From positions 24,633 through 88,632 of the IMG/VR virus record IMGVR_UViG_3300049718_000055: a stretch of 64,000 nucleotides of DNA. One strand, 5' to 3'. Below the pieces are notes generated by a model that worked only from the letters and a program-made list of their open reading frames with translations, ran no database searches and was not told the DNA's origin. Shown one piece after another: positions 13,201-56,389 of this stretch. Positions within the stretch are counted from its first letter, which is position 1. Each line of letters opens with the position of its first letter. Origin of the DNA: a virus. Both the position numbers and the translations under genes were made by a program.

Positions 13201-15047
13201 GGGCCATAAACCTCTTCGCCATCAACAACCGTCTTCGGAATTACTTCCGTGGCTTGTGGGCGCGGAGTCTCTTTCTCACGCTCCTCTCTAGCCTTTACGT
13301 TCCGCTGCCTTGCGGCCTCGTTGTCGGAAATGATTTTCTCGCGCTTTACTGTCTCCGCCTTTTTGTTCTCCTCTACGGCTTTGCGGATTGACTCCTGAAC
13401 CGCGCTCTCATGCTGCCTTGCAACAAGCTCTTCCCGGTCTGCATGGATTTTCCTTACAGCCCGTTCCGCCGCAATCGGATTCCAGGATTCTCTTAATGCT
13501 GTGCTGTGACGATATTGAATCCGTTTCAGGTTTCTTTCGTCTGCCTTCCCTATGAGATCATGCGCTCTCTGGAAATAAGGGTCATCGTTCCATACCTTGT
13601 CGAGTACAATCGACTGCTCTTGCGGAGTTTTTAATTGCCCAAATTTCTTCCCGTCAAATAGTTCCTTAGAGGCATCATCAAGATGGCTCGTGACTACCGC
13701 CTTGGCAGCATCTTCTTTAATTCCATGCGCCAGCATTGCAAGATTGCCAAGACCGGAAAGGCCAAATTCAAGCGTTTCTGAAATATCCCCCTTCTTTGCC
13801 GCTTCCATTGTCTGCTGATAGTCCTGCCCTACTCCAGCGGCCATCTGAATCTTGAAGCCATAATCAGCAAGAGTGGAGACGGTTCTGACTGTTCTCGCAA
13901 CAGCAATAGGAGCTTCCCATCCCATTTGTTCTGGAAGGCTTGCGCCCCGTGAGGCCACGATAATAGCCACCATTGCAGGATTGGTTAGAGTTTCCCCAAG
14001 CCGCATCGAGGCATTTGAAATTCCGGCATTACCTTTTGCTACTATTCCTTTCCACTTACTTGTCTCTCCAACCCTGTCGGCCCATGTATTGTTTTTTGCC
14101 CTGATAAGGTCTGTGTCCCCTCCTTCAATACCTACGGATTTTGATGCGAGAGAGACTAGGTTGGGATGCTCCGCGTGTGGCTCTGGAATGCCCAGCAGTC
14201 TAGCGGTATTCGCTATTCCTCCCTTGATTTCATCCCACCAATTTCCGCCGGCAACTTCGAGCCTCTTCGTTGCTCTGGCAAGATCGGTAAGTCCTGCGTA
14301 TTCCTGCTTTCGCTCCTCATTCCACCCTTGCTCACTGGCATAGGCATACCCTTCAGCATAGTGCTTCGCATACTCCTCTGGGGTAGAAAATGAGTGATAC
14401 GCTATCTCCGCCGGGTCCGCAATTGTACGAGAGGTGTCAAAGCGATGATTTTTAAGGTCTGATTCTTCTTTTGCCTTGTGATCTTGCGCCCTCTTCAATG
14501 CGCTCTGGTATACGCCTCCCTGCTCATCTGGCGTGAGGGTTTTCTTCTCTGCATCTTCCCACTGCAAAGACATAGCATATTCTTCACCCCTTGCGGGATT
14601 TAGATGATGCAGTTGCACACCATCCCTGTATCGGCTGACTCTTTCAATTGCCCTGTCTTTGCTTTGCCCTTCGTTTATAGTGCGGGCATAGATTCTCTGC
14701 TCGGGTGTCATCCACGAATCGTCATACGTTCCGCTCTGCATACTGCGGGCATTTTCCGATTCGACTGACGAAGGCCCAATTGTCGCATGGTGAGGGCCGG
14801 CGCCTGTCGCTTGGAGAATCTTTTCCTGTGGGGTCTGAACAGCGGTTGCACCGTGCTTTTCAGCCAGTGCCGCGAAGTCTGTCTTTGGGGTCTTACTTAC
14901 ATTTTGAATAACAGGTTGGGCAGCTTGAGACTTCGACGAACCTCCAAATTGCTTGGCGAGACTCTGGTAATCGACGTTTGGGCCTTCCTTCTTTTGCCCA
15001 ACTACGCCACCAAATTGTCCTGCGAGTTTTTCATAATCAGTCGGCAT
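4206..15047 (-). CDS. Giant polyvalent protein with helicase, ParB-like and metallopeptidase-like domains
   Basis: About 3613 residues. Three N-terminal repeats of the form D[YF]xxLAxxFGG lie at residues 4-67. A DdrB/ParB-like segment is near 1240 (DSYGRVIGGNTRLL), an HExxH-type site near 1766 (THELWHAF), and a superfamily 2 helicase at about 2190-2680 with Walker A GTGTGKT (~2224), DEAG (~2314), SATPF (~2354) and motif VI EQTLGRPWR (~2627). The C-terminal third (~2900-3500) looks like a large polyvalent-protein-associated domain with a hydrophobic stretch near 3439. Proteins of this build are packed in the capsid and ejected with DNA to counter defence. It follows the ejection-type genes, overlapping the previous stop (TGATG). 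No methyltransferase motif was seen. Confidence 0.85.
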   Translation of the reverse strand: MPTDYEKLAGQFGGVVGQKKEGPNVDYQSLAKQFGGSSKSQAAQPVIQNVSKTPKTDFAALAEKHGATAVQTPQEKILQATGAGPHHATIGPSSVESENARSMQSGTYDDSWMTPEQRIYARTINEGQSKDRAIERVSRYRDGVQLHHLNPARGEEYAMSLQWEDAEKKTLTPDEQGGVYQSALKRAQDHKAKEESDLKNHRFDTSRTIADPAEIAYHSFSTPEEYAKHYAEGYAYASEQGWNEERKQEYAGLTDLARATKRLEVAGGNWWDEIKGGIANTARLLGIPEPHAEHPNLVSLASKSVGIEGGDTDLIRAKNNTWADRVGETSKWKGIVAKGNAGISNASMRLGETLTNPAMVAIIVASRGASLPEQMGWEAPIAVARTVRTVSTLADYGFKIQMAAGVGQDYQQTMEAAKKGDISETLEFGLSGLGNLAMLAHGIKEDAAKAVVTSHLDDASKELFDGKKFGQLKTPQEQSIVLDKVWNDDPYFQRAHDLIGKADERNLKRIQYRHSTALRESWNPIAAERAVRKIHADREELVARQHESAVQESIRKAVEENKKAETVKREKIISDNEAARQRNVKAREEREKETPRPQATEVIPKTVVDGEEVYGPVTRLEQKAYIGVEPVGSGFGVYVQDEETGEKQYLNSTGYFGSAETAASVEDEESARTLAKIQALRTTTAEDAAKEDHLGNVTEQLIAKEIDSRHAQDMTGIGGDERLPDEHDAARGEGVEGPFANGREQFNHEFDEAFEKSGVDYEKKDATLSQAEASAWDLTNENLNMLTRSGDRIVDRRGNVWELGADGLLHGPDGQKIPLKKDGIYSNLAMNLAAYGRIRYGEMTREERLSREERDRDAQRAVASIDQELLATGAEPIPEEKLARVRDYSNRRRQSRAERTNPQEGEQGPAPDTEQSLINLLTQVGDAGWASNPEYAAGRLQEVADREGVPVEALVRQKLSGSEDPLARIAQLQPGNTVQDANWKGRTWTVSERKNGDLYLSSGGAQHDLNPLNPSDVVRRIVGKGDSIVFNKPEQLAEAASKSVWVENNRQATQGVNDRAGSPAPEPRNAEEAKEYVQAAEGRQEAAVAEVVRSIGDAFDVNAGTTEQDIDKRAQAVKEATDTLHRAVQQTADAVGKAAGKGDYPSGGGILIARRGDPTQVNKGKESHPGQYALMDIEAPIVSHRWNGNNLEDNEEYVPKEMQYRDFDENRTKDVLGEAQPENFTHRLYFDTGYGPENGPAILDSYGRVIGGNTRLLRLKKWLENISRMGDTKARDAEMIVFNDAVAKFSAKVGIKHVPDDGRTYIPVRVLDKPIDTVGEAARIGRLFNDRSSAQVGENVEALSNGKLLSDADHQERLDGKDGILSEIASKIAGNDISTVRAAIDDDPYWFAKKAREYFHIPPTENAAWFDSVGEDATLNKAGKDKFVLALVGSHILDVESVRLISGTDAESSLTKAIGSVTALRAYYPGLTEKVTEAVSAAAKTRRFRREGDKPIPAWNHVYGNGDFFLGKPDEPSRVTQAVYVALLDSKTTRLNGALNDMIVGEPGMEMLFAPKVEGQELHTAADYFNVAFRPELEKIAKSQGKKFEPVTQEEFEAALQNRYEAPKEEKKPEPQPEVKAEEIPKIGIEPPAEPKAETEKGIKPPPKTRSEKEVAKDVLLNQVREQGYVDYEGLKTFVYADESTKENAKWHMKNFHLVSEAIWEFEKPEGVERKDALKWVLERKKILSSIERDKYFERGRGRTEWDEIGKTSRVYLHEKADKTTVTHELWHAFLPFLSDEDLRALNTITGPTKALWDGKSRADLVGKVLEEFSERAIGGIEKYNRDENPKLFSAETGKILAKLKEIFQQVYKKWREDPLRPFRVTDDAKETLDRIYHVTGMDPADEFLTETEAAEKAKKRIKNPSDVVDPIEQARKDTGAIFVRRDVKGVIEARTHEGAKDVKNIPGKTVVFAFDDYAKAVMAFTPIGRETRYGSSGIQADAAQLIEMDDGNWGVKFNTKGNVPPTVMFQESQPETRGEMGARRNQLKRELSALPRHKILDKQFLQMQIDDLENKIAAEYGTEERAPKTDPELAHKVMEERKNERANRVREGTHEAAGIQRPPTVDRVSGKTELGMPRHDGAGGSPAIRGFGVDRVEPIRMLPLRETNDPVVGKTADDAPETEESWKKRTGKAGMSTESPLPIWAITERTARILDEDKHPGQAPTVQIVMSALQRGDGALVASGTGTGKTWTAMGIISEFGRDREAGDKPLTLYITRNRPLLEKTADEPAKAFGVDLSLDTPKFGIENGTYGVSYQTALRNPVYQNIKWDMVIADEAGEARNWFKKAENKKGMSQGQMLMAIMQNAKKGVYMSATPFHTPLEVGYLEKLGLWKKGGYEEFLKSNFKTYYKDKTLVAELDPVKMAKLRQQLIQRGQMVSQTLSYEGFNVHFGFVPMTSAMKRGLDTISGLMERARTRTKLTEGLSPKSISAYEAQFTKAFLEREMIPNVIEMAKRDIEKGYSIIIASPTTDEDLFRKERSGEPTAFQQMDDAMNGQFSRLLPRLPNVFDALQAEFGDKIGNYSGVNQSDTGREKVRKDFQDGKLPMAYLSIPAGGIGSDWNDTKGDKPRLMYVLGPPYSGVLLEQTLGRPWRDGTKSDVHVVFLGTDAAPQVRIMKELVAPRMRSIRAAVHGIKDSLATAMENYSDVERTRAEQDTLNFANGNEIEVKAADFGVRHAGRVVGIDSWDAIQIPPASEAMNKGLRTGAQEGADWTNMYQDKERAFTPPPTNVKAEKAINDIAESAAKNPDIPKETIALGAAHASEVAGITPEGIDPAEAGSYAMKGELQSHGFTYDPETGEWSGPLYHAKKMLGRDTSGLEERRLGESEEPTFGQRIKEKIRIPAINAARKIGMQDKVRRWFDKEYANYQKRTLGMNFRMRALGVSRKSGYLEKTGAVFDKLDDYQQKQMGISGNFQMRLIDIFKENKLEWNSDGPVEGKVKEWLRRPGHDDVREVWDVKEGRVASNDPRINKAAEELRLLMDEANELATKEGVHREDGSIYDVPNNPHYMPHETDWDMELTDSETGEIRTLSEVCDDKTLDDVAKLRYLEKERQRLKVGTGDAHRWLGELSRDRERRLKRPRNPNVTTKRTVNHPFYKKDIWALNKYFDQLGSAVALESTLGHDMGKVGSLIADVPSSALRKDLTENLKLYFEYQDWNTRVGRMYRFMQPFEVITKMSLSPISVAFHNVHAGQLGLKPWFVGNYRMFRHPKERMREKFYVGVVTPRMNPALIEGKNFGVAKEMLKATGFSDVYNWQRATVGEIAWAWMDLDVLSDLKAGGKRAETSRRLLKDRMLLSDDEINKAVANNRWDEESKWKAERVFANKVAFTEQPEQMPRMAKLSMSEGLGDAEKNLHAVAHAAYNLQSFQIKSYSGIKEWYFDEVFHHRNFRPLLPFFLLYPAAGFALMNLKAGVKHGAQKAFEGATGQSHTRDSWDNLLEDYRDLEKHPWSGALKICLDSLFIGMANDRMKMWTDIGMMAAEGEEKKLYKMMGYMATDELDRLVGSIYKDIFMAGSTVPKAADDTSKLKNPTVKKFGKNLEKESAKEAKRIAWPLGTIPKVNEWSGTKKIQPPPK

Positions 15048-16729
15048 CACTTAATCCCGGCTGCTTGCTTGAAGGCGTCAGCCGATTTCTGGTCTGGGAA
15101 TGTGTAGGTATTTCCGTCTGGAGCTTGAATCGCTATGGTCCCCTGCTGCTGTCCCCCTGTTGTCCCACCAATCGACTTTACGGCAGAGTCGTACTCTTCC
15201 GCAACGCTTTGCTTTGCGCCGTCAAGAAACTTCTTCGCTCTGGTGTAGGCCGCATCTTTGGCCTGTTGAGCAGCCTCGAGAATCGACGGGTCGCCAGTAG
15301 CCGCCGTCTTTTGAGCCGCTGCAAATGCCTTGTCCGCAGCGGCAAGGTCGGCCTTGTATTGATTCTCAGCCTTCCGGTAGCCTTCCTTCTGCTTCTGAGT
15401 AGCCTGCCGGGTTACTGAGGCTGTGAGAGCCGTCTGCTTGCCTCCCGGCGGCGGGGTGATTCCAGCCTTTGCGGTCTTGCCAGCCTGCGGTGGACGGCCA
15501 ATCCCTTGCGCTCCCTGCCCGGTAGGAGACGCCTTTGCCGTTGGAGGCTTACTGATCCCTGCCGAAGCGGGAGAAGCCTGCCTCGAAGCCGCTGGAGGTG
15601 GCTGTATGGCCACCGGAGTGGCCTTGCGCGTCGCTGTGGTCTTCCTGTCTCCCTGCGGGGTGGTAGAGGACGTACTCGTGGTGGCTGTCTGAAGAGTTTT
15701 ATCCGCCCTCGCTTGCTGCCTTGCTGCCGTCAGTTGCTCTGTGGTGGCGTTTTCTCTCGTTACCCCAAACTTTTCCTTTAGAAACTTATCCTCTGCTTCG
15801 GCGTCGGAACCGGCCTTTGGCGCCGCGCTCCCTGCCGTTGCGTTCCATCCCTCCGGCTGTCTCCCAGGAACATACCAACCCCTACGGCTTCCGTCTGGAG
15901 AGGAGTATTCCTTCGGAGTACCCCTTCCAGATTCCCGCTCCCTTTGCTCGATTCTTCCCTTTGCCGCATCGATTGGCTTGACGCCGGTCTCAGGGTCTAC
16001 GTCAAACACCTGCTTCTTTACTTCGGGCGGGAGAATAGCCTGTTGTTTTTCATCAAGGCTGCCGTATAGAGCAACCATATTGGAGTCCGCAGCGGCTTGC
16101 TGCTTGCTCTGGACTTCCTGTTGTTGTTCCTGCAACTTAACATTTTGTTCTTTCCCTTGCTGGGTCTGACCTAGCGGCCTTGCCTGCATGGTCATCAAAG
16201 CAAGTTGGGGAACGATATGCTGGTTCGCCGCAAGAAAATCTCGAATGTTGCTGAATCCCGCGCTGGCTTGTTTCTTGTCTTTGCCGCCCGTTGAACCAGA
16301 GCCTCCCGATGCGCTCTTCTTCCCCTTCTGTGTCTTATCAGGAATCATTATCGAACTGATCCCAGCTAGAGCCGTGTCTGTTGTTCCCTTATATGCAATG
16401 AAAGCAGGGTCTTTTTCGTCGTTCGGCTTCGCTTCTCCAGAGTCGATTTTCTGCTGGTACTGATCCCTCGCTGCCCCTATCGCCGCTTGCGCAGAATTGT
16501 ACATTGCCTCTGCTTGAGCTTGCTTCCGCTGTTCTTTTACCTTGTGCCCCTGCATGAAACCCTTGAGCATGGCATCGCCGATTGCCAGAGCACCTGTTCC
16601 ACGTCTTCCAAATTGGCCATTTAGAGGTTGCGCAGGCCCGCCGCCGCCGGTATTGTTCATGGGCAGTTGAACAAGCGGAATCGTACTGACATACGGCTTG
16701 ATCTCGGTTTGGGGAGTATTTACTGGCAA
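15047..16729 (-). CDS. Probable internal/ejection virion protein
   Basis: 560 residues, low complexity: Ala/Gln/Lys-rich helices at 50-200, a long Ser/Thr/Pro-rich linker at 280-430, helical 440-520 and a C-terminal APDGNTYTFPDQKSADAFKQ module. That last module is typical of phage virion proteins next to large ejected enzymes. It lies directly before the giant polyvalent gene, with which its stop overlaps. An internal-virion role is inferred from position and composition. Confidence 0.6.
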   Translation of the reverse strand: MPVNTPQTEIKPYVSTIPLVQLPMNNTGGGGPAQPLNGQFGRRGTGALAIGDAMLKGFMQGHKVKEQRKQAQAEAMYNSAQAAIGAARDQYQQKIDSGEAKPNDEKDPAFIAYKGTTDTALAGISSIMIPDKTQKGKKSASGGSGSTGGKDKKQASAGFSNIRDFLAANQHIVPQLALMTMQARPLGQTQQGKEQNVKLQEQQQEVQSKQQAAADSNMVALYGSLDEKQQAILPPEVKKQVFDVDPETGVKPIDAAKGRIEQRERESGRGTPKEYSSPDGSRRGWYVPGRQPEGWNATAGSAAPKAGSDAEAEDKFLKEKFGVTRENATTEQLTAARQQARADKTLQTATTSTSSTTPQGDRKTTATRKATPVAIQPPPAASRQASPASAGISKPPTAKASPTGQGAQGIGRPPQAGKTAKAGITPPPGGKQTALTASVTRQATQKQKEGYRKAENQYKADLAAADKAFAAAQKTAATGDPSILEAAQQAKDAAYTRAKKFLDGAKQSVAEEYDSAVKSIGGTTGGQQQGTIAIQAPDGNTYTFPDQKSADAFKQAAGIK

Positions 16730-16733
16730 CGTC

Positions 16734-17105
16734 TTACCTCGATGAATCCTTGCGTTCCTTCTTCCGCTTCTTGTCGGGCTTCTTTCCGCCCACTGTGCTC
16801 ATTCCAACCTTATGAACGCCAACACGCTTCGCCTTCTTCCGTTTCGGGATGATCCGGTCCTCGGCCTTAGTGCGTTTCGCTTTGCGAATTTTACCGCCGG
16901 TCCTATACTCGACAGGGTGAATGTGCTCTGCGTATTTCCCCGCAGATTCCGTCTCCGAACGACCACCCGCGGCCATAGCCTTGCCTACCTGCTGGAGAAC
17001 AATTCCCCCTGGGCTTGATGGCTTTCCGCCGCCGGCGCCGCCCTTCGCGCCGCCTTTTCCCCCACCCTGAACCATGCTCATTATGCCGCTTGCGCTGTCT
17101 CCCAT
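16734..17105 (-). CDS. Small basic protein, GGKIRK family
   Basis: 123 residues. Gly-rich N-terminus and a polybasic C-terminal half with GGKIRKAKRTK. The motif is shared with neighbours at 17108 and 17320 and with the protein at 45234. Probably virion-associated, perhaps neutralising DNA charge; inference only. Confidence 0.65.
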   Translation of the reverse strand: MGDSASGIMSMVQGGGKGGAKGGAGGGKPSSPGGIVLQQVGKAMAAGGRSETESAGKYAEHIHPVEYRTGGKIRKAKRTKAEDRIIPKRKKAKRVGVHKVGMSTVGGKKPDKKRKKERKDSSR

Positions 17106-17107
17106 AA

Positions 17108-17317
17108 CTACCTCCCCGCCGATCTTTCGTCCTTCTTCCGCTTGCCCTTCGCGCTCTTCATTAGACGCTCAGAATTCTTGGTTTTCCGTACCTTGCCACC
17201 GCGCTTCAGAATGGCCGGAATTTCTACACCATACTTCATAAAAGGAGTCTTGTACCACGGAGTTCCCTTGTGGGGTTCCCACTTACCGTTTTTCCCTTTG
17301 AGAATTTCGCTACTCAT
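17108..17317 (-). CDS. Small basic protein, GGKVRK family
   Basis: 69 residues with RGGKVRKTKNSERLMKSAKGKRK. Same motif as the flanking genes and separated from them by only 2 bp. Function unknown. Confidence 0.65.
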   Translation of the reverse strand: MSSEILKGKNGKWEPHKGTPWYKTPFMKYGVEIPAILKRGGKVRKTKNSERLMKSAKGKRKKDERSAGR

Positions 17318-17319
17318 TT

Positions 17320-17736
17320 TTAGCTCCTTCCGGCGTCTTTGCGATCTTTCTTCCGCTTGTCCTTCTTGCGCTTCTTGTCGGTCAACGTCATCCCGGCTCT
17401 CTTCATCAGGCGCTCAACTTTCTTGCGCTTGTCGGCAGGAATCACCCGCTCATTCTCATGTGCGATGATCGGGACAGCCCGATTCTTCCTCTTCGATTTT
17501 CCTACTCTGCCACCCTTTTTGTAGCGAACTGGCTGGATACTATCGCTTATTTTCCCGGCGTTAGACGATTCGATATTGGCCCAATCCTGCATGGCCTTCC
17601 CCGCAGAAGACGAGGCTTTCTTCAAGCGTCCGCCCATGCCTCCGCTGCCGCTCGAAGACCCTCCCGAGGAACCGCTCTTCGACTGCTGCTGAATTCCCTG
17701 TTGAACCATTCCCTGCCAACCGCCACTAGCAGCCAT
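17320..17736 (-). CDS. Small basic protein with GGRVGK and ERVIPA motifs
   Basis: 138 residues from the ATG at 17736, chosen for its AAAGGAG ribosome site; the longer open frame upstream only shadows the next gene. Gly/Ser-rich start, then KKGGRVGKSKRK, then HENERVIPADKRKKVERLM, which resembles the KGE-x-VxPA motif of many short phage proteins. Overlaps the upstream stop by 11 bp. Probably part of the ejectosome or packaged core. Confidence 0.65.
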   Translation of the reverse strand: MAASGGWQGMVQQGIQQQSKSGSSGGSSSGSGGMGGRLKKASSSAGKAMQDWANIESSNAGKISDSIQPVRYKKGGRVGKSKRKNRAVPIIAHENERVIPADKRKKVERLMKRAGMTLTDKKRKKDKRKKDRKDAGRS

Positions 17737-18526
17737 AAGGCGCTCCTTTCGATTTCTTCGCTTGCGATAGGAACCAGTCAAACAGCGGCTTGAGGACAAA
17801 CCTAACCGCCGCGTTCCTCTTGAATTGCCGCGCAACTCTCTGCCCATACTCCCGGTACATCCACATGACCGCAGACCCCACAAACGTCTTCGCGTAGACT
17901 CTATTGAGCCACCTGCGAACCAAGAGAGTCCGTTCGTCGAAGTCTCCCCAATACGCCATTGCAATCCAGCACGCTTCTCCACCAGCCTCAAGCAGTGAGC
18001 CCCCGACACTCCCCCACAGTCCCATTTGAGTAGCTTTTTGCTCGTTGGAAATCTGCTGAATCTGCCCATATTGGTTAGACGCCGAGTTCATTCCACGCAA
18101 TCCTGTCTCTGTGGCCTGATTCCCCTGCGACACGTTCTGACCGCCCAAACTTGCCAGAGACGAGAACGCTCCCGTATACGATCCGGTCGTAAGGTTGCTG
18201 ATCTGCGCCCCCTTTGACAAGTCCGCATCCGAGATTGCAAGGTCTCGCGCCCCTCCTCTTGGGGCGTTCTGCATGATGTTTTGGAGTTGCTGATTCGACT
18301 GCCCGGTAATGCTCTGAATGGCCGGTGCGTTTGCCCTCGCTAGCGCGTTCGGATCACCGCTGGCCAGTTTATTGTAATAGGATTCTGATTTTTCAAGTCC
18401 AGGAAGGGCGAGATTAAAGAGAGTGGAGCCCTCTTCGGCGCTCTGTTTTCCAGAAGCCGTCATCATGTCAGCTAAATTCGCTTGACTGGCCTGTAGTTGG
18501 GCGTCCTCGCCTGAACTCTTTCCCAC
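17726..18526 (-). CDS. Probable ejection protein with CFI-box-like C-terminus
   Basis: 266 residues. Residues 1-170 are Gln/Ser/Ala-rich and helical, as in small internal virion proteins of podoviruses. From about 175 a CWIAMAYWGDFDERTLLVRR segment starts a conserved Trp/Arg-rich C-terminal domain of the CFI-box type. Placed first in the block of ejection-type genes leading to the giant gene. Virion assignment is inferred. Confidence 0.65.
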   Translation of the reverse strand: MGKSSGEDAQLQASQANLADMMTASGKQSAEEGSTLFNLALPGLEKSESYYNKLASGDPNALARANAPAIQSITGQSNQQLQNIMQNAPRGGARDLAISDADLSKGAQISNLTTGSYTGAFSSLASLGGQNVSQGNQATETGLRGMNSASNQYGQIQQISNEQKATQMGLWGSVGGSLLEAGGEACWIAMAYWGDFDERTLLVRRWLNRVYAKTFVGSAVMWMYREYGQRVARQFKRNAAVRFVLKPLFDWFLSQAKKSKGAPYGC

Positions 18527-18558
18527 GGATGCACTCCTACATGGAAGGGTACAACCGA

Positions 18559-19167
18559 TTAGGCGTTCGTTGCCACTAATTTCTTCGACTCAAACCATTT
18601 CTCGAACGCTGGAGTAAAATCATTTACCTCAAGTATCATGGCAACCGCTGAAACCAACTTGCCGCGGTAGAAGTGGAAACGTCTCACTACGCCTTGATGC
18701 TTGAACCCAAGCCGCTCCGCAAACCTCTGCGCCGGCTTGTTCTCTTCAAGAAGTACCCCGTGGATGACATCGATCTTCAACCCTTCCGTCCAATATGCGA
18801 TTCCGAGCATCCCTAAATCGTACATATAGCGGCTTCTCTTGATAAACGCGAACCCGCATAATGCCGCTCTCTCCCCGTCAACCCCCTTTGGAAGTTCCAC
18901 CCAAGCATAGCCGACCGGATGAACGATCTCCTCTGGAGTCCCCTGATTCTCAACCTCGCAGAGTATTTGAGTCACCCTCTTGGATTCATCGAATGATCGA
19001 ATGAACTGGTCGTGAGAGGGATTTTCTCCGCACATGATGTACTCCAAACGGCCGAGTTCCTTGCTGCGGTAGTAGAGCGTAGAGAGCATTCCATCCCGGT
19101 AAACTGCGGTTCCAGGAGAAAACGGAATCACCGCCGCGTTTTTCGTCATGTATTTCCAGCCGTCCAT
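18559..19167 (-). CDS. GNAT-family acetyltransferase-like protein
   Basis: 202 residues from ATG 19167, preceded by GGGAGGCG. The region 95-170 has a GNAT-like order: a beta strand VGYAWVEL, YDLGMLGIAYW, then VLLEENKPAQRFAERLGFKHQGV, the last being the usual GNAT C-terminal motif of N-acetyltransferases. It would use acetyl-CoA to modify an amine or peptide. It sits between fibre and ejection genes; similar genes occur in phage tail clusters, target unknown. Confidence 0.7.
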   Translation of the reverse strand: MDGWKYMTKNAAVIPFSPGTAVYRDGMLSTLYYRSKELGRLEYIMCGENPSHDQFIRSFDESKRVTQILCEVENQGTPEEIVHPVGYAWVELPKGVDGERAALCGFAFIKRSRYMYDLGMLGIAYWTEGLKIDVIHGVLLEENKPAQRFAERLGFKHQGVVRRFHFYRGKLVSAVAMILEVNDFTPAFEKWFESKKLVATNA

Positions 19168-19209
19168 CACGCCTCCCTTGTCTCTTCGGCACTCCAAAAA
19201 TTAGAATCC

Positions 19210-19995
19210 CTACGCATTGATGATGTAGGCCGCGGTTCCAACGGCACTATTCAAATAGCCGCTGGCCGTTGCGATAGCCTTGATTGTCTCGCTTCCATAT
19301 ACTCCGATAGCGCCCGTGTACAGAGTGGATGAAGTCGTCGGCGTGCTCCCATCGGTAGTGTAGTAAATCACCGCCCCCGGCGTCGTGCAACTAATCGCCA
19401 CCGACTGCACTGTTGTATAAGACCCCGCCGCCGGCAAGAACGTCGGCGTTGCTGCCGTTAATCCGATAGTGAACAATGCGGTCGCTACCGCGCTGGTGTT
19501 GAAACCCGTTGCCGTCGCTATCGCCTTAACTGTCTCAGTGGACGTAATGGTGATTGGGGCGCTGTACAAAGTTGAAGACGTGGTTGGTGTCGATCCGTCA
19601 GTGGTGTAATAAATGGACGCTCCCGGTGATGAGCAACTGATCGCCACCGCTTGTCCTGAAGCGTAATTTCCCGCTGACGGAGAAAACGATGGTGTGGCCG
19701 CAGGATTGAGTGCAGGTCCGCTGATTGCCGCCCCCGCCAGAGATGTAAGTGAATTGGTCAACGTCTGATTCGCTCCGTTATACGCCGTGTGCTGTGATGC
19801 AATCCAAGAGGTCACCTGAGCGATACTGCTGTTGAATTGGATGATGAACTGAGAGGCGTCTAGGCCGTAGTTGCGGGTAGGCCCGAGCCATGTACTTACC
19901 CCGTCCGTAGTCGAGGAATGCACCCGTACAGTGATGTGACCGCTTGCTTGATCTACTTGAACACTGTCAACAATGATTGATGTGGTATTTGCCAC
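19210..19995 (-). CDS. Tail/adhesin-like protein with two chitobiase C-terminal-type repeats
   Basis: 261 residues. Two ~85-residue repeats (about 90-175 and 176-260) each carry AATPxFxPxAGxY, IYYTTDGSTPTTSS and ETVKAIATA, the CHB_HEX_C-type Ig-like fold found in carbohydrate-active and surface-binding proteins. The first 90 residues are a separate virion-like head. Probably part of the host-binding apparatus. Confidence 0.75.
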   Translation of the reverse strand: MANTTSIIVDSVQVDQASGHITVRVHSSTTDGVSTWLGPTRNYGLDASQFIIQFNSSIAQVTSWIASQHTAYNGANQTLTNSLTSLAGAAISGPALNPAATPSFSPSAGNYASGQAVAISCSSPGASIYYTTDGSTPTTSSTLYSAPITITSTETVKAIATATGFNTSAVATALFTIGLTAATPTFLPAAGSYTTVQSVAISCTTPGAVIYYTTDGSTPTTSSTLYTGAIGVYGSETIKAIATASGYLNSAVGTAAYIINA

Positions 19996-20004
19996 TTCAC
20001 CCTC

Positions 20005-21189
20005 CTAGAAAAATACACCCGCGGTCGGAGAACCCACTATCGGAGATCCGCCGCCTCCACTCAATGACACCTGCCCACCAGAGTTCGTCAACACCACCAC
20101 AGCAACTATTTGGTTCCCATCAAAATTTACCTGAAGCCTATTTTGTGCAGTATCGCCAGAATACGGCCCCGAAAGAATGACAATTCGGCTTCCCTTTTTG
20201 ACGCTGTAGTACCACACGTTCCCTACTTCAACGCTTCCCCCAGACCCGCTAACGGTTCCCAGGGAGGCTTGATAGGTGAACGTATACGGCGGAGTTGCTG
20301 AACTGATCGGATATGAGCCATTGAACCCCGCAGGGGATACTCCGGCAATCGTCATCGAACTTTGAGCCGTGAGCCCCGTGGCTACATAGGTAACCACCGT
20401 CACAAGGTTTCCCACACTGGAGATTGAATGGATTCCATACGAGGTAGGAAGGGAAAGGGTATCCGTCCTTCCGTACAAATAGGTTTTACTTCCATCGGCA
20501 AAAGTGAAGGGGCTGGCCGGAATGGTTACCGTCACGCTTCCGGCATTTGTTATTGCAGCCACTAGGAAATAGGCGCTTCCAACCGAGCCGGACTGAGTGG
20601 GATAAACCTTGTCCCCAATCGCATAATTCAACCCTCCAAAAACACTTCCCCCTGTGACCACCCCGCCAGCCGCCGTAATCGCAGCCAAAGCCCCCGTGCC
20701 GCTTCCCGAAGTGGTCGTAGGCAGGTTGGAAGCATTGCTGTACCCAGAAGTTCCGCCAGCCCCCAGAGAAGACGAAGTGATTACCCCGCCCGAGATAGAG
20801 TTCGTTGTCAGCGGAATGATGTTGTTGGCGTTTGGGGGAGTTGACATAAGATCGTTCAACCAGGAGCTTTGCTGCTCCCTCTGTGAATTTGAATTTATCA
20901 TCCGATACGTGTCGAGAGAGTTTCCGCTGTTTGCCTGAAGCTGCGGCTTCAAAGCGGCAGCACTGTACGAAGTCTTCGCCGCCCCGCTCGTCAACGCATC
21001 ACTATCCGAGGTCGGCGCCGCAACATTCTTGATATTATTGCCACCGAGGTTGAGATGATTGCTCAACTCGACTTCCCCATTATGACCGCCAAGAGTGTTC
21101 ACGTTGTCAATCAGTTGGCTCATCAATTGGCTCTCTGGAAGAGACAGGGAGGAAAAGTTTATCTTTCCGAGTTTGGAAGACTTCGGCAT
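20005..21189 (-). CDS. Tail fibre-like protein
   Basis: 394 residues from ATG 21189, whose start overlaps the previous stop (TAATG). N-terminal NHLNLGGNNIKNVAAPTSDSDALT is the usual phage fibre attachment motif. The rest is Gly/Ser/Thr-rich beta repeats ending GVFF. Receptor-binding role inferred from this pattern and from adjacent adhesin-like genes. Confidence 0.7.
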   Translation of the reverse strand: MPKSSKLGKINFSSLSLPESQLMSQLIDNVNTLGGHNGEVELSNHLNLGGNNIKNVAAPTSDSDALTSGAAKTSYSAAALKPQLQANSGNSLDTYRMINSNSQREQQSSWLNDLMSTPPNANNIIPLTTNSISGGVITSSSLGAGGTSGYSNASNLPTTTSGSGTGALAAITAAGGVVTGGSVFGGLNYAIGDKVYPTQSGSVGSAYFLVAAITNAGSVTVTIPASPFTFADGSKTYLYGRTDTLSLPTSYGIHSISSVGNLVTVVTYVATGLTAQSSMTIAGVSPAGFNGSYPISSATPPYTFTYQASLGTVSGSGGSVEVGNVWYYSVKKGSRIVILSGPYSGDTAQNRLQVNFDGNQIVAVVVLTNSGGQVSLSGGGGSPIVGSPTAGVFF

Positions 21190-21443
21190 TATCCAGCTAC
21201 CTCTACTAGTTTTCCGTGCTGTTCCCACGGCGTAACGACATCATCAGGAACAGGACCAAAACACCTTCCTTCGTTCTTGCATTCCGATATTCCCGATCTT
21301 GACATTCTAGAATCAGGTTTTCCGTGAAAGATATGACGCTTCCCGTCAGTCTTTGAAATCTTCGGAATCCAATACTGTTCGCACCCCCAGCAGTATCCGT
21401 CAACCTGAAACCTTGGAAATTCGGATTGGATCGTCTCTGGCAT
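21189..21443 (-). CDS. Small Cys-rich protein
   Basis: 84 residues with YCWGCEQYW near the start and a later CKNEGRC, suggesting a metal site. Start ATG 21443 is chosen because TATACT lies exactly 6 nt upstream. Overlaps the fibre gene start. No family recognised. Confidence 0.6.
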   Translation of the reverse strand: MPETIQSEFPRFQVDGYCWGCEQYWIPKISKTDGKRHIFHGKPDSRMSRSGISECKNEGRCFGPVPDDVVTPWEQHGKLVEVAG

Positions 21444-24452: not shown

Positions 24453-24473
24453 CCCCATACCCTCCTTTTTATT

Positions 24474-47313: not shown

Positions 47314-48294
47314 TCACAGACCGCTAAAGTTCAGGTTTCCCATTAGGCGGGGCGCATCGAAAACCAAATCCCCGTCATAGAAATACTGGCCGGCCACGTC
47401 ATCAGTGTTCTGGGCCTCTTTCCAGCCCGAGAACCCGAAAGCGTATTTCGGAATCGTCGAGACGTAGAAGAAGATGTAGTTGGTGTTGAACAAATACATC
47501 TGATAGGCGCCACCGAGAGTGCTGAGGTACTGGTCAACAACCACCTGAGCACCGCTCCAGAAGAACGAGCGGAATCCAATGTGAACGTCGGAAGTCTCGT
47601 CATTGAACCGTTGCTGCGGCTGGAGCTTGTTCCAGAATGCGTCCCACACCGGCTGAGTGGTTACGAGCATATCCGGCTTTTCCTGGCCAAACCATGTCGC
47701 ACCAAATGCCGTCTGCACAGCGCCCAGCGAGAATGCCGATGGTGCCGCATAGTAGGCGTTGATGCCAGTGTTGGCCGCGGATGCGATGTCGGTTCTGGTG
47801 ATGCCGCCATACGTCGGGTAGTTGGCCGGGATGTTGACCGCCGCTGCCGCCCCGTCAAGGTCGGTCGTGGAGTTCAATGAAGTCGAACCGTTCACGCCGC
47901 CATCGCCGTACAGGTTGACCGCAAGCAACTGTGCCATCGTTCCGGAGGCGTTAATCATCTTCGAGCCGATAAAGCTCAAAGCTCCTTCCGGGCCGCGGTT
48001 CAAAACCTGATCCGAACCGTAGAGGGTGACGTTGACGTAATACTGCTTGATGTTGAAATACAGGGCCGTGTCCGTCTGCACTGCCGAGGTATCGAACGCT
48101 TGGCCGCGCTGGTACGAACCGCCCTTCAAAGGCGCATACATGATGTTGTGGCGAATCGTCAGACCGCCCTCAAATTGGAAGCGCCGCTTGTTCTTGAGTC
48201 TCGTAAGGACAGGCGAGTTCTTGAACACGTTGTCCACTATGCGCGGGACGATCTTATCGACTGTTTTGCTGGTCAAGTCATTATATGTGAGCAA
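47314..48294 (-). CDS. Major capsid protein
   Basis: 326 residues. The TTG at 48294 is chosen as start because AAAAGGGG lies just upstream; a longer frame to 48357 has no ribosome site. LTSKTVDKIVPRIVDNVFKNSPVLTRL and GGLTIRHNIMYAPLKGGSYQRG are the N-arm and E-loop-like region of an HK97-fold coat protein. MYLFNTNYIFFYVSTIP and DDVAGQYFYDGDLVFDAPRLMG form the usual C-terminal end. It follows the scaffold gene. Confidence 0.85.
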   Translation of the reverse strand: MLTYNDLTSKTVDKIVPRIVDNVFKNSPVLTRLKNKRRFQFEGGLTIRHNIMYAPLKGGSYQRGQAFDTSAVQTDTALYFNIKQYYVNVTLYGSDQVLNRGPEGALSFIGSKMINASGTMAQLLAVNLYGDGGVNGSTSLNSTTDLDGAAAAVNIPANYPTYGGITRTDIASAANTGINAYYAAPSAFSLGAVQTAFGATWFGQEKPDMLVTTQPVWDAFWNKLQPQQRFNDETSDVHIGFRSFFWSGAQVVVDQYLSTLGGAYQMYLFNTNYIFFYVSTIPKYAFGFSGWKEAQNTDDVAGQYFYDGDLVFDAPRLMGNLNFSGL

Positions 48295-48476
48295 CTTGAG
48301 CCCCTTTTCTGCCCAATCGGGCTTGGAATGCTGACAACTCGGCTTGCGCCGTTTCATCGGTCTGTAGGGGCCGCTTTACGCTTCCTACTGACTCATCCCT
48401 GCCAATCCCGAGTGGGGGCTGCACGAGGCTTCCCGCTTACAGATCGCAGTCGCGGTTTTGAAAGAACCGCTAAACT

Positions 48477-50439: not shown

Positions 50440-50604
50440 CTACTTCACCTTGTCGCGGGTCTCCAACTGGACAGAAACAACTCCCCCGTCCTTGTTGAAA
50501 TCGACAGTCAAGCGAGAGAATTTCCCGGCCTCATGCGCCCTTTTGAGTGTGTCGAGAATCAACGGAATGTCCTCATTCTCGAACTTACTTCTGCTTTCCG
50601 CCAT
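50440..50604 (-). CDS. Hypothetical small protein after portal
   Basis: 54 residues from ATG 50604 with GGAGAG. IPLILDTLKRAHEAGKFSRLTVDFNKDGG, helix then strands. Overlaps the portal 3' end by 20 bp. Unknown. Confidence 0.6.
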   Translation of the reverse strand: MAESRSKFENEDIPLILDTLKRAHEAGKFSRLTVDFNKDGGVVSVQLETRDKVK

Positions 50605-52432
50605 GATGCTCTCCTGGTTTTGCTCCGCTTACCGCCATCTGTTTTGCCTCTTCCATCAACTCGGCATCGTTTTCTTGGTAGTCGATGTTCCAGTCTGGAA
50701 TGGCGATCTTGAAGAACTGTTTGCGGCTCAGGTCGTGGTTCTTTCTCAGGCCGGCCGCGATCTGTATCCGGTCGGTCCTCTGGAATCCAAATAGCGATCC
50801 CTCCTCACATTCAAACCCAAACTTGCGGACATGAGCCTCAGAATTTACTCCTTCCGGTATCAGGCTCCCCGGACGGTCATCGATGTCCTCTTTGGTTAAA
50901 CCATCCATTCCAAGGCACTCCACGCGCCTTGAGGCGTCATAGAACTGGAGTGCCGTTGCGGTCCACAACTCCCCAACCTCGTTTACTCCAGTTTCCACGT
51001 TGCCTGCCTTGAAGCGGATTGGCGTAGTCTTCGAGAACTGAATCTTTTCGATCGTGTCGCCACCTGGAATCTGCTTCTTTCCAAGAGCCTGATTTACAGC
51101 GTCAGTTCCCGAGTTCTCTTTTATCGACCGCCGCAGTAGCTCAAGCACGGGGAGTGGGTAGTTTCCAATGTTTGGAGGCTGCTGCCATGTTGGACTTGTA
51201 ACCGCATTCGAGTTGAAGGAGATTTTCAGATTCGGCTTGCCAGCGTCGATCTGCTTCAAAGCGTCTGGGTGAATAGCTGACTTCGGCGCCATCAAAGCCG
51301 GAGCCAAAGCCCTCTTCGTTGCCAGCAAGAGCCCAGACATGATCTGGTTCATGATGTCGTTCGTGTCCATCCACGGCTTCATTACGCTCAAAGCATACTG
51401 CTGCCACGGAACCGAGTGGAGGCCCATCAAGACAAACGGACGCTTGCGGTGGTAGTAGGGGTTCGGCTCATCGTAGAGCGTGATCTTATTCGAGCGGATT
51501 ACCAGCCGGCCTCGCGGGTAGAGTTTCTCTTCAGGCTTGACCCAGTAGCCCCACGGAGCCTTCTCCGGACCCATCCAGATCGTGTTGCGCGAATCATTGA
51601 CGCTATCATCCTGCATCCAAAATTCAGCGACTTCCGCCTCTGGATACTTGCTCCTCACGCTCGACTGCTCGGAGCCGCCCATGATCTTCTTCCATCCGCT
51701 ATTCAACTGCTCGAAGAGTTGAGGCATTACCGTTGGAGGAACCTGCGGCTCAACACCGTACTGGCTTATCCCCTCGTCTGGACGGACCGCCCTTCCCATG
51801 TTCGGGTAGGCCCGCTTGATCCAGTCCAACGTCTCCCGGTGCCGGTAGATCACCATCTCATCTTCTTCGAGGGTGTGAGGTCTGGTTGGCCCAAGCCGCA
51901 TCAGTGCCTTCGGGCTCAGGTGCTTCATGGAGATGTCAGCGTCGGCAGGATCACCGCTTGTACCTCTAGCAAACCGATTCCAGTAGAGAAGGACCGGAGA
52001 AGTCGTGAACATCCCAAACATCGTCCAAAAAGCAAGTGTCTGATTGAACTTGTCCCGCCGCGCCCAGCCCTTGACCATCGCATTCAAAATCTTTGAGGTC
52101 TTCGAGAAGTTCCCCGGCATCCCCACTTCCGAGATGTGGAAGATGGGCCGCGTGTCCGTCAAGAGCCCTATCGTCTCCCAAAAGTTCGACAGGACTTCAT
52201 TCGACACCGGCTTCGGCCGGTAGCTCGGCAGTTTCTCCCTCCACTGGATTCCAGCCAAGTAGTCGATGGCCTCATCCATTGCCTTCAGTTCGGGAGTGGT
52301 CTTTTGTTTGGAGATTCCTTCAGAATAGCAACCATCCAAAAAATCTCCCATCTTCGTGTAATAGTCCACGAGGTATCGGTCAACTACTTCCGGCGTCTTC
52401 GGGATGGGAGCTTGGAAATCGCTGTCTGCCAT
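50585..52432 (-). CDS. Portal protein
   Basis: 615 residues. N-terminal helices (VVDRYLVDYYTKMGDFLD), LPSYRPKPVSNEVLSNFWETIGLLTDTRPIFHI and the middle PFVLMGLHSVPWQQYALSVMKPWMDTNDIMNQIMSG are typical of the podoviral portal family. Twelve copies would form the DNA channel at one capsid vertex. Gene order terminase-portal-scaffold-capsid supports this. Confidence 0.85.
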   Translation of the reverse strand: MADSDFQAPIPKTPEVVDRYLVDYYTKMGDFLDGCYSEGISKQKTTPELKAMDEAIDYLAGIQWREKLPSYRPKPVSNEVLSNFWETIGLLTDTRPIFHISEVGMPGNFSKTSKILNAMVKGWARRDKFNQTLAFWTMFGMFTTSPVLLYWNRFARGTSGDPADADISMKHLSPKALMRLGPTRPHTLEEDEMVIYRHRETLDWIKRAYPNMGRAVRPDEGISQYGVEPQVPPTVMPQLFEQLNSGWKKIMGGSEQSSVRSKYPEAEVAEFWMQDDSVNDSRNTIWMGPEKAPWGYWVKPEEKLYPRGRLVIRSNKITLYDEPNPYYHRKRPFVLMGLHSVPWQQYALSVMKPWMDTNDIMNQIMSGLLLATKRALAPALMAPKSAIHPDALKQIDAGKPNLKISFNSNAVTSPTWQQPPNIGNYPLPVLELLRRSIKENSGTDAVNQALGKKQIPGGDTIEKIQFSKTTPIRFKAGNVETGVNEVGELWTATALQFYDASRRVECLGMDGLTKEDIDDRPGSLIPEGVNSEAHVRKFGFECEEGSLFGFQRTDRIQIAAGLRKNHDLSRKQFFKIAIPDWNIDYQENDAELMEEAKQMAVSGAKPGEHHGGKQK

Positions 52433-52477: not shown

Positions 52478-53086
52478 TCATTCAGAAGCGACCAGCATCC
52501 TTTCAGCCCGGACAGTCAAGGCGATCATCATCGCCATTACCCGATCATTGGGATACGATTCGTTTTCATCGTAAGCAAGAACCTCGTCCAGCAATTTCTT
52601 GCTGTGAATCAACCCCCGACTTGAGCCAAAGAACTCGCGGAATGCGGATTCCATCCTCGTCTTCGATCTGAAGTCCGTCCACCATCCTACGATTTCCGTC
52701 GTCTGATGGTTTAAGCGGTCAAGGCGTTTTTGTCGGTAGATGTTTTCGTACTTAAATCTTTTGGTCAGGATGCTGATCGTAATCAACCCTACGCTGTTGA
52801 CCTCGACCGACACTTCCGCATTATTGTACCGCTTCGCCAAATCGAAGATGATCGGGGCAAGGTTCTCCGGCGTTACTACGGCTGCGAATTCAGCACATTG
52901 CTCTCCCGTCTCTGCATCGATCACTTCAATAGCAGCGTTGTCTCCCCCGTCAATACCTGAGCACGGGTCCGCCGCAAGGATGTAAGACTTCCCCTCTTCA
53001 GGGAACTTCCACACTTTTACCGGAGACGTAGCAAACTTTTTCTGCTTCTCAACTTCATCTGGAATTCCTACTGAAATCACTGACAT
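52478..53086 (-). CDS. Stand-alone paralogue of the TerL nuclease domain
   Basis: 202 residues after an AAAAGGAG ribosome site. It contains only the RNase H-like nuclease half of a large terminase: YILAADPCSG (Asp40), SVEVNSVG (Glu95), YENIYRQKRLDRLN and NDRVMAMMIA (Asp181). The same four blocks, in the same order, occur in the full TerL at 53760. There is no ATPase domain. Could be a separate nuclease subunit or a decayed terminase duplicate. Confidence 0.8.
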   Translation of the reverse strand: MSVISVGIPDEVEKQKKFATSPVKVWKFPEEGKSYILAADPCSGIDGGDNAAIEVIDAETGEQCAEFAAVVTPENLAPIIFDLAKRYNNAEVSVEVNSVGLITISILTKRFKYENIYRQKRLDRLNHQTTEIVGWWTDFRSKTRMESAFREFFGSSRGLIHSKKLLDEVLAYDENESYPNDRVMAMMIALTVRAERMLVASE

Positions 53087-53115
53087 TGTTTTCTCCTTTT
53101 CGGTTAATGCTCCGG

Positions 53116-53727
53116 TTAAAACCAGCTATTTTCAATCGCAGTTTTGAGATTCCGCTCGATCCACACCTTCACCGGCTCGTTCTGGTCACGGGCCTTCTCG
53201 ACCACGGCGCCGTACTGAGCACCCAGATCGATCAGCACGGAATTCGGGTTGCGGCCCTCATACGCCTGAACGTCTTTCCGGGCGTTCTCCGCTATCAGGT
53301 TGGCCGTCTCCAAGTCCATCGAAAGCGAGTACAGCAGTCCAAACAACTCCGCCGAACTCTCCGGCCGCTTCCCAAACCGCTCCTTCATCCGCATGAGATC
53401 CGACTCAGGGACAATCATAACCTCTCCCTCGGACAGCATCCCCAACACCTCGGCTATCGTAGAAGACGACGCGCTCCCGAACTTCGCCTCAAGCCCCTGC
53501 TTCACCCGCGGAGGAACGGTCACTTCCACCTTGACGTGATTCTGCTGGACGACTACCGGAGGCTTCGCCTCTTCGTACTTCACCTGCGGGTTGAGGCTCT
53601 GGAAGGTTGCAATGTCGTTCCACGAGTGGTTGCTATTCGCAGAGCATACCAGTTGACGGTTTGCAGCTTGCATCTGTGCCCCGCACCCAGGAATAGGGCA
53701 GGCGTACCTCAGTTTTACGATTGGCAT
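53116..53727 (-). CDS. Hypothetical protein with N-terminal zinc ribbon
   Basis: 203 residues. YACPIPGCGAQM and CSANSNHSW form a likely zinc finger at 8-35. The rest is helical with KVEVTVPPRVKQGLEAKFG. Lies between the two terminase-type genes. A palindrome copy precedes it. Confidence 0.6.
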   Translation of the reverse strand: MPIVKLRYACPIPGCGAQMQAANRQLVCSANSNHSWNDIATFQSLNPQVKYEEAKPPVVVQQNHVKVEVTVPPRVKQGLEAKFGSASSSTIAEVLGMLSEGEVMIVPESDLMRMKERFGKRPESSAELFGLLYSLSMDLETANLIAENARKDVQAYEGRNPNSVLIDLGAQYGAVVEKARDQNEPVKVWIERNLKTAIENSWF

Positions 53728-53759: not shown

Positions 53760-55940
53760 TCAACTCCACTTCCATGAATCCGAATCTCCCACCATTTCTT
53801 CGTCTTCCTGCCGAGCATCGTACTCCGCTACGCTATCGGAATCGATCATCTCTGCTGGAGTCCCCTCTCTAAACATCTGCTGTCGTGTACCCGTCCTGTC
53901 GTGGATCGGACTAAACGCTGTGTTCTGAAAATCCGCCGGCACTCTGATCTTCTTCCCATTCACAACCAAATCCGCCATTGCCCCGTGTTCGTTCACAATC
54001 CATGAGCCGATCTGTTTCTTCGAGAACTTCTCAGCTTCAAACGGAGAGGCTGAACGAAATAGTTCTATTGGGAATTTTTGACCGGAACCAAGTCCCATCT
54101 TGTAAACGATGTAGTTATTTGAGTCCTTGAGGGCGGTAGACGGCCGTTGTCTTACCTCTTGAAACTCTCCTTCGTGAGCACAGTAAATTGCTATCATCAT
54201 CGCCATTACCCGGTCATCATGCCCTTCTTCAGCCCCATCCTCCTCGAAATCCTTCAACTCTTCAATAAAGTATTTGTCGGGAATGATTATCATGTCGTCG
54301 CCCATTTCTTTTGCTAAACGAGCGATAAGATTCTTCTTGGAGTTGTAGTTTGTGTACCATCCTCCGATGTCTGTCTTGAAGTTCTTGAGACGATCCATCC
54401 TCTTATAGATATAAACATTGTCGTACTCGTACTCGCGGTACATCCTAGCGAAAGTTGCCATCCCCATTCCGTTCACTTCGATAGCCGAGAGGGCGTCGTT
54501 ATAGTATGTGCAGAGAGCTAGGTTTGTGTCTGCAAAGGTGTACGGATCTATGTGACCATGCCATGTAGCCACTAGTTCGTCTTTCCCCATCCCCTCCCCT
54601 AGCTTGATGACTTGGCAGCATGAGTAATCACCGCGAACCTTTCCAAGTGCAACGTCAGAGCCAACGCAATATCTTGCCCCTGGCTCCTTGAGTTTCCATA
54701 CGCTTAGCCTTGCTCCTACCTTTGTGTTCAATCCCCTCTTCTCTTCTTTAATGGGATGGATGCGAAGTTCTGTCTCCCACGCATTAAAGTCAAATCCTAC
54801 CTCTCCTATGTAGAGCGGCTCCCTCACTTTCTTGCTATAACGGTTGATGATCCCTCTTGGAATTGCCGTGACCGCTGAACTCTGGAAAGACTCTTCTGGA
54901 TTTGCTGGATATTCTTGAAAAAAACGAAGATCGTCGCCATGGGTATCTTCAAATCCCTTCTTTGTCTTCCGCATCCAGTTGAAGGTTTCATCGCTGATAA
55001 CGAACTTATTCTTTGCGATGATTGTTTCCCGCATTTCTTTTTCTTCGGTAGTGAGAACGAATTCCTTGTCTTTTGGAATTGGCAGTGAGTAGGTTTTTGC
55101 CCTTCGATAAAACTCGATGAATATAGGGTTCCAGTCAATCTCCCCCGACTCCGCGCTATTCCAAAAGTTCTGCCAATAATTATTCCGTCCATTGGCCGTG
55201 GAACCCATTACATAGAATCCGTCATCGGCATTGAACGTCGGGATCAGAGACTCGGTAAGTTCCTCTGGGTTATCCCATTTCGACAACTCATCCAAGACTG
55301 CGCGTCGGTATCCCTGTCCACGGCCTACGCCGCTTGGACGATTAGCATTGTCGGCGTACACCCAACTTTTCAGCCCCGGACGCATCGTTCTAAGGTTTTC
55401 ATCTGATTCGTCAAAGTTATAAAGTTTCCCAGTCTGATGAAGATTGACTCTCGGCTTCATCCACCACGGGATAAACTCAAACGCAGACTCGTACATTCCC
55501 ATGTTGTACTTGGCGCCGCGCTCATCTTGGCTTACGATAATCGAATCCGCTTGAGCGCAGAATATCGTCTTATGAAGGAACTCTCCGATCATGTACGTGG
55601 TATATCCAAGACGACGAGCCTTGAGAATAATTGCGCGAACTCTTCCGTCGCGCTTCTCTAATTTCCTTAGCTCATCGTGCAGAATTTCTTGGCTGTCAAA
55701 AAACGGATATAGACCTTGAAACCCCAATCCTTCCGTCTTGATCGCGTAATAATTAGAGAGAAAATATCGTGGTTCTTTTATGCAGTGAATGATCTCGCTG
55801 TCGATCCACTTGCTATCGTCTCCCGAAAGAGATGCACGTGCTTGGTCGTCTCCTTTGTCTCCTTCTACAAACTTCGCCCGATGATTATCTAAGATTTCGA
55901 TGTACTCCCCGAGATATTTGTTTGCTCTGTTGATTGACAT
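53760..55940 (-). CDS. terL: Terminase large subunit (TerL)
   Basis: 726 residues from ATG 55940 (GTG 55952 also possible). The ATPase half has an atypical Walker A ILKARRLGYTT (~105-115) and Walker B RAVLDELSKW (~215-224). The nuclease half has GSDVALGKVRGDY (~430), AIEVNGMG (~490) and HDDRVMAMMIA (~590). About 100 extra C-terminal residues end in an acidic tail. It drives ATP-powered DNA packaging and cuts the concatemer. Longer than usual TerL (450-600). Confidence 0.92.
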   Translation of the reverse strand: MSINRANKYLGEYIEILDNHRAKFVEGDKGDDQARASLSGDDSKWIDSEIIHCIKEPRYFLSNYYAIKTEGLGFQGLYPFFDSQEILHDELRKLEKRDGRVRAIILKARRLGYTTYMIGEFLHKTIFCAQADSIIVSQDERGAKYNMGMYESAFEFIPWWMKPRVNLHQTGKLYNFDESDENLRTMRPGLKSWVYADNANRPSGVGRGQGYRRAVLDELSKWDNPEELTESLIPTFNADDGFYVMGSTANGRNNYWQNFWNSAESGEIDWNPIFIEFYRRAKTYSLPIPKDKEFVLTTEEKEMRETIIAKNKFVISDETFNWMRKTKKGFEDTHGDDLRFFQEYPANPEESFQSSAVTAIPRGIINRYSKKVREPLYIGEVGFDFNAWETELRIHPIKEEKRGLNTKVGARLSVWKLKEPGARYCVGSDVALGKVRGDYSCCQVIKLGEGMGKDELVATWHGHIDPYTFADTNLALCTYYNDALSAIEVNGMGMATFARMYREYEYDNVYIYKRMDRLKNFKTDIGGWYTNYNSKKNLIARLAKEMGDDMIIIPDKYFIEELKDFEEDGAEEGHDDRVMAMMIAIYCAHEGEFQEVRQRPSTALKDSNNYIVYKMGLGSGQKFPIELFRSASPFEAEKFSKKQIGSWIVNEHGAMADLVVNGKKIRVPADFQNTAFSPIHDRTGTRQQMFREGTPAEMIDSDSVAEYDARQEDEEMVGDSDSWKWS

Positions 55941-55942
55941 AT

Positions 55943-56389
55943 TTACACCCACCCATCATACGCACCAGCCGCCATCAAACGCCGAAGTTCCCTCTTCCAG
56001 TTTTTACCTTCACCCATAGAGCGGCCATGTTTTAGATTTACTTTCATGTGAACCATTTCGTGAATAAGAGTGATCCTCGTTTCATTTACTCCCAGATCGT
56101 CCGCCAAAGCCAATGTTTGAGGAACTGGTACTCCGTGATGTTTTCCGCATGAGCAGAATCCATCAGTGTCTCTATCGATGCTCCCGCTGAGCCTGTCCAT
56201 CTCGTTACGCGGAAGAAACTTTATTTGCATTTCTTCGACCGGGGGGATGCTGTTTCCAAAGTAGTTCTTGCGGATAGAGCGGTAGTCTCTCGCCAGATCA
56301 ATATCCCGCAACTCAGATACGGTAGTGACCATCTCGCGGATTCGTTCGACTTCCCATGTTGGGAGTTTGAAGTTGCTACTCTTCTTCAT
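55943..56389 (-). CDS. SprT-like zinc metalloprotein
   Basis: 148 residues from ATG 56389, inside the end of the small terminase gene. The zinc site HEMVHMK with a later H-G (KHGRSMGEGKNWKRELRRLM) matches SprT/Spartan-like metallopeptidases. Upstream CSCGKHHG may bind a second zinc. Such proteins can cleave protein-DNA crosslinks; here possibly clearing proteins from DNA before packaging. Sits between TerS and TerL. Confidence 0.8.
   Translation of the reverse strand: MKKSSNFKLPTWEVERIREMVTTVSELRDIDLARDYRSIRKNYFGNSIPPVEEMQIKFLPRNEMDRLSGSIDRDTDGFCSCGKHHGVPVPQTLALADDLGVNETRITLIHEMVHMKVNLKHGRSMGEGKNWKRELRRLMAAGAYDGWV

Follow-up and report, generated by a model that had tools for sequence, protein, structure and literature searches.

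The nuclease locus

The stretch of DNA analysed, referred to here as the window, covers 64 kb of the virus record G000, which is 88.6 kb long. Its source is an uncultured short-tailed phage, a member of a lineage with P22/SU10-type portals. The packaging and head genes are located on the minus strand. A complete terminase, TerL, of 730 aa is encoded at 53760..55952 and contains both the ATPase and the nuclease, the latter domain at 54171-54707. This is followed by a 203-aa gene with a zinc-ribbon-like start (53116..53727), which is conserved between TerL and the portal in the lineage. The SU10/P22-like portal protein (50585..52432) and the major capsid protein (47314..48357) complete the group. 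Between the 203-aa gene and the portal gene lies a free-standing ORF of 202 aa with an ATG start (52478..53086, minus strand), which encodes a TerL-type RNase H nuclease. A Shine-Dalgarno-like AGGAG was read from the sequence ahead of the ATG, at 53093..53097 on the minus strand (position counted by hand).

A second region of interest, at 15047..21228 (minus strand), contains the fibre, CHB_HEX, GNAT, 266-aa and 560-aa genes. The GNAT-type acetyltransferase (18559-19197) is placed among virion genes and is conserved in every member in which the ejection region was seen. The ejection-type genes end in a single ORF of 3614 aa (window 4206-15050), with homologues in two related phages, G002 and G004, and no PHROG match. 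Other proteins encoded by the phage include an RtcB-type RNA ligase (23274-24503), a peptide deformylase-like protein (57998-58606) and a DUF5131 protein (36606-37337).

Domain identity and fold

The ORF is 32% identical to the TerL of the window over 179 aa (BLASTP, E=1e-27). The likeness is not attributable to chance, given this E-value and the restriction of the match to TerL residues 416-594. Pfam Terminase_6C scored 18.6 bits with the ORF and 21.5 bits with the phage's own undoubted TerL, both below the cut-off of 22.6, and PHROG terminase families matched as well. When a profile of 37 such domains was compared with the PDB, RB49 gp17 (E=7e-38) and T4 gp17 (E about 1e-35) were recovered. 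The AlphaFold model of the 202-aa protein has an RNase H fold, with a mean pLDDT of 90.1 and a pTM of 0.86. Foldseek searches with this model placed the RB49 and T4 gp17 nucleases on top (E about 1e-11, TM about 0.75), RB49 gp17 being the best solved match, followed at lower ranks by the G20c, P74-26, HCMV and HSV terminases.

The packaging ATPase domain is absent from the 202-aa ORF, as are the hinge and the C-terminal tail of roughly 130 residues found in TerLs; as a nuclease only, the ORF is not a TerL. By its sequence and predicted structure, it is a complete free-standing nuclease domain of the T4 gp17 type, belonging to the TerL nuclease family by fold and triad. The original prediction had described a separate TerL-type nuclease with a full triad and no ATPase, adjoining a complete TerL, and BLASTP, profile, AlphaFold and Foldseek comparisons agree with that description.

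RuvC belongs to the same RNase H superfamily, and no structure has been reported to be closer to that of the G20c TerL nuclease (PMC5389553). In the Foldseek results, however, the RuvC structure 4ld0 was found only at rank 26 with a TM of 0.45, far below the TerL nucleases. Identity as a RuvC Holliday-junction resolvase was rejected, as the phage record contained no PF02075 match (11 of 14 controls were positive).

Catalytic residues and selection

The catalytic triad of T4 gp17 consists of D401, E458 and D542 (PMC3012670). By position count in the profile alignment, these pair with D40, E95 and D181 of the 202-aa protein, for which the codons are 52967..52969, 52802..52804 and 52544..52546, respectively (all minus strand). 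Only Y35, D40, G44 and E95 are invariant columns in the alignment of 37 sequences, with D181 at least 90% conserved. Motif III is Asp-Asp in the TerLs of the family, in contrast to the Asn-Asp (N180-D181) of all three free-standing proteins, in which the catalytic second Asp is kept. Loss of the catalytic residues in relatives had been named in advance as a ground for abandoning the prediction; the residues are intact in all free-standing relatives, at 63-66% identity.

Among the free-standing nucleases of different phages, pN/pS is about 0.3, with dS saturated. By this measure, the free-standing nuclease genes are under purifying selection. Approximately 20 bases are identical between the free nuclease (52521-52546) and motif III of the window TerL, a position at which the other free nucleases differ. 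This might be a small gene conversion patch, or chance.

Distribution in related phages

In IMG/VR, the ORF has close relatives only in G001, G002 (97 kb) and G004/G003 (79 and 35 kb). The DNA of G001 is identical to that of G000 over 20.6 kb and possibly represents the same population. Contig scans of sequenced bacterial and archaeal genomes returned no relative of the ORF. Most of the long relatives of the phage are without the gene, which is rare and patchy as a result. A weak nuclease match in G021 (7946-8233, E=0.001) was discarded as a conserved unrelated 202-aa gene, and other matches in viral contigs (L007-L009, L032-L043) were found to lie inside full or end-truncated TerL ORFs.

A full TerL is also present in G002 and G004, 65-66% and 48-49% identical to that of the window, respectively. 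In both phages the nuclease gene lies about 30 kb from the phage's own TerL, in the fibre/GNAT acetyltransferase/ejection-type region, where it directly follows the fibre gene in G002 and directly precedes the 560-aa-type gene in G004. No nuclease gene occurs in the equivalent region of the window. The three phages have the gene in three different positions, each with its own ribosome site and in line with structural genes. The G004 nuclease has an N-terminal extension (L026:9007-9150) with a zinc-finger-like CxxC...HxxxC, absent from the other two. In these related phages the nuclease is kept catalytically intact; its adjacency to TerL is peculiar to the window phage.

Insertion and origin

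The order of TerL, 203-aa gene, portal and capsid is kept in about 40 related contigs, and only in the window phage is a nuclease found between the 203-aa gene and the portal. The inserted segment of 636 bp (52482..53117, minus strand) is absent from L100, L101, L102, L104 and L111. L100, whose TerL is 85% identical, aligns without a break as far as window position 53118, and the alignment resumes at 52481. The stop of the 203-aa gene and the portal leader are conserved on either side of the insert (ATTTCCGTAG...CGACATGGCAGAC). As read from these aligned sequences, the junction records a clean gain of one gene, and a cassette-like pattern of presence or absence against intact empty sites holds for the nuclease gene.

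In the tree, the three free-standing proteins group together as a clade (100/100) on a long stem, outside the TerLs of the lineage. The AU test against joining this clade to the phages' own TerLs was marginal (p-AU 0.06-0.074). The pairwise identities of the three nucleases are 66, 63 and 63%. Core genes behave differently: between G000 and G002 the portal is 86% and the capsid 94% identical, and against G004 these values are 52% and 72%. TerL is exceptional among the core genes, with only 66% between G000 and G002. The near-equal distances of the nucleases, unlike those of the core genes, suggest separate acquisition or exchange between phages.

The possibility of a recent tandem duplicate of the adjacent TerL is not supported. 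The nearest relatives of the nuclease are the G002 and G004 genes (63-66%), compared with 32% for the phage's own TerL, and the tree, the distances and the junction are all against it, the AU test being marginal. The wording of the original prediction, a second copy of the TerL nuclease domain, is supported as to the TerL-type nuclease and unsupported as to a duplicate of the neighbouring terminase. By these comparisons the nuclease represents an old paralogue or else a domain that was acquired; it was not recently copied from the adjacent TerL. The marginal AU result leaves room for an older origin from the phages' own TerL line, from which the nuclease may have split long ago. Because it is found at different places in two related phages, the gene has the appearance of a mobile accessory nuclease rather than of a motor gene copied in place. 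It forms a single-gene cassette in a small number of phages, all from one uncultured lineage.

Other free-standing packaging genes

Free-standing genes of the TerL ATPase type, 263-267 aa in length, are also present in the lineage, in G004/G003 (L026:6562-7365 in G004), G028 (L204:7843-8634) and L217 (L217:1595-2374). The domain is 56% identical between G004 and G028, and Walker-A-like residues, a catalytic Glu145 and Ser175 are invariant. Its model, of moderate confidence (pLDDT 70), matched the structure of the T4 gp17 ATPase. The free ATPase is closest to other TerL families and not to that of the phage itself, and G004 also has a full TerL. The free ATPase and the free nuclease do not always co-occur. 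In G002, a 173-aa protein (L021:12128-12649), encoded directly before the GNAT gene, has a local match to the major capsid protein of the lineage. Together, the free ATPase domains and the capsid-like protein indicate that the lineage collects separate parts of the packaging machine.

Possible functions

The role tentatively favoured for the free-standing protein, with somewhat less than even confidence, is that of a rare accessory nuclease: an auxiliary endonuclease, dependent on metal, that would be made late and would cut phage DNA in trans while heads are being filled. Synthesis would take place together with that of the structural genes. Cutting in trans would depend on metal, and the possible tasks include the nicking or debranching of concatemers stalled at the portal, or the trimming of ends. 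The protein would not translocate DNA, as the ATPase, hinge and tail are missing. When the domains of T4 gp17 are cut apart, the ATPase and nuclease functions are retained and translocation is lost (PMC3012670, PMC9958956). By analogy, the free-standing nuclease is expected to cut DNA without pumping it. In the absence of the ATPase, isolated TerL nucleases have been reported to be weak (SPP1) or inactive (P22) (PMC5389553), which suggests that activity may require a partner or a particular DNA shape.

Auxiliary nucleases that act late are known from T4, where the gp49 resolvase binds the portal (PMC3012670, PMC9958956) and gp4 acts as a DNase (PMC7824862), and in HK97 an HNH nuclease acts with the terminase (PMC10448857). 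T4 gp49 (endonuclease VII), gp4 and the HK97 HNH protein resemble the free-standing nuclease as extra late nucleases of packaging or head completion, but their folds are unrelated and the analogy is one of function only. The gene is not needed for packaging, since it is rare and absent from most long relatives. The phage also encodes a RusA-like Holliday-junction resolvase outside the window (L030:17793-18464, G000), so that a pure debranching role would be partly redundant here. A RusA match is absent from most relatives searched, G002 and G004 included; G014 has one.

The clean single-gene insertion, the three positions in three phages and the distances unlike those of core genes would also be expected of a selfish or homing-like gene, whose nuclease promotes its own spread by cutting DNA near the insertion site. 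Homing endonucleases often adjoin terminase and structural genes (PMC10448857), and in G004 an HNH endonuclease gene is near the nuclease. This explanation is nevertheless unlikely. No homing-endonuclease family (HNH, GIY-YIG, LAGLIDADG or VSR) and no DNA-recognition domain was matched in the nuclease ORF. A homing gene would usually return to the same fixed site, but the three insertion sites are all different. In addition, cleavage by TerL nucleases shows no strong preference for sequence, as reported for T4 gp17 (PMC3012670).

A slightly lower probability is given to a decoy or regulator, an isolated domain which binds and blocks a TerL partner, be it the phage's own motor, that of a competitor or a bacterial TerL sensor such as Avs3. 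The bacterial sensor Avs3 binds TerL (PDB 8dgc), and this entry is among the structure matches of both the nuclease and the free ATPase. The other isolated packaging and capsid pieces of the lineage (TerL ATPase in G004, G028 and L217; the capsid-like 173-aa protein in G002) fit such a role, but the capsid-like match spans only about 40-80 residues. The herpesvirus UL15.5, a naturally isolated C-terminal TerL product, is dispensable (PMC3079670). A decoy would have no need of the full conservation of catalytic residues. Rather improbable as well is a broader scheme in which a mobile stock of free packaging parts (TerL nuclease, ATPase and perhaps a capsid piece) would operate in trans, either to assist packaging as accessory factors or as decoys directed at rival phages or at bacterial defences that sense TerL or capsid.

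Very little weight is given to the nuclease as one half of a second, split terminase, in which nuclease and ATPase from separate genes would act together. In G004 the ATPase-only and nuclease-only genes are within 2.5 kb of each other, and the free ATPase keeps a Walker-A-like motif, the catalytic Glu and Ser175, and matches the T4 gp17 ATPase fold. However, an ATPase-only gene is missing from the window phage, G028 and L217 have one without a nuclease gene, the two halves are closest to different TerL families, and the phages bearing the nuclease have a full TerL as well. Least probable of all is a non-functional relic of a TerL gene, which would suit the rare and patchy distribution but not the uninterrupted ORF preceded by a ribosome site, the pN/pS of about 0.3, the catalytic residues invariant among free-standing relatives, or the domain-exact ends at three different places.

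Comparison with known terminase nucleases

The free-standing nuclease shares its RNase H fold, Asp-Glu-Asp triad, length and element order with the nuclease domain of T4/RB49 gp17 (Terminase_6C). It differs from gp17 as a separate gene without ATPase, hinge or tail, in the Asn-Asp at motif III, and in being additional to a full TerL. In herpesviruses, UL15.5 is likewise a C-terminal part of the terminase that occurs naturally on its own, in addition to the full protein (PMC3079670). UL15.5 is, however, an N-terminally truncated product read from inside the same gene (UL15), whereas the nuclease described here is encoded by an independent, diverged gene.

In Fletchervirus (Campylobacter phage F336), the nuclease half of TerL is also an ORF of its own, of 302 aa. 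The annotation of the F336 ORF includes an intein C-terminal splicing region, suggestive of a TerL made in two parts that trans-splicing unites; in the window phage, in contrast, TerL is complete and the nuclease has no intein part. A TerL split or fractured by an intein or intron was rejected for the present case, as a full TerL is present in the window phage, G002 and G004 and the nuclease ORF has no intein match. Inteins are present in the TerLs of two relatives, where in-frame inserts (L141:8749-9951 and L151:10328-11194), differently placed in the two and close to residues 349 and 117, match intein splicing and LAGLIDADG families.

Isolated TerL nucleases are already known, from UL15.5 and from split-intein TerLs. 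In the open-access literature searched, a partial coverage that gives weak evidence, there was no record of a free-standing or split gene for a TerL nuclease in a phage whose TerL is intact, of a mobile paralogue in that setting, or of two TerLs in one phage.

As a rule, the nuclease domain of a TerL is fused to the motor, which restrains it. An intact motor together with a free, independently evolving nuclease in one phage provides a natural test of how the nuclease acts without the motor. It also bears on whether parts of the terminase become stand-alone tools, for accessory cutting, for homing or as decoys, and the related free-standing ATPase domains sharpen this question.
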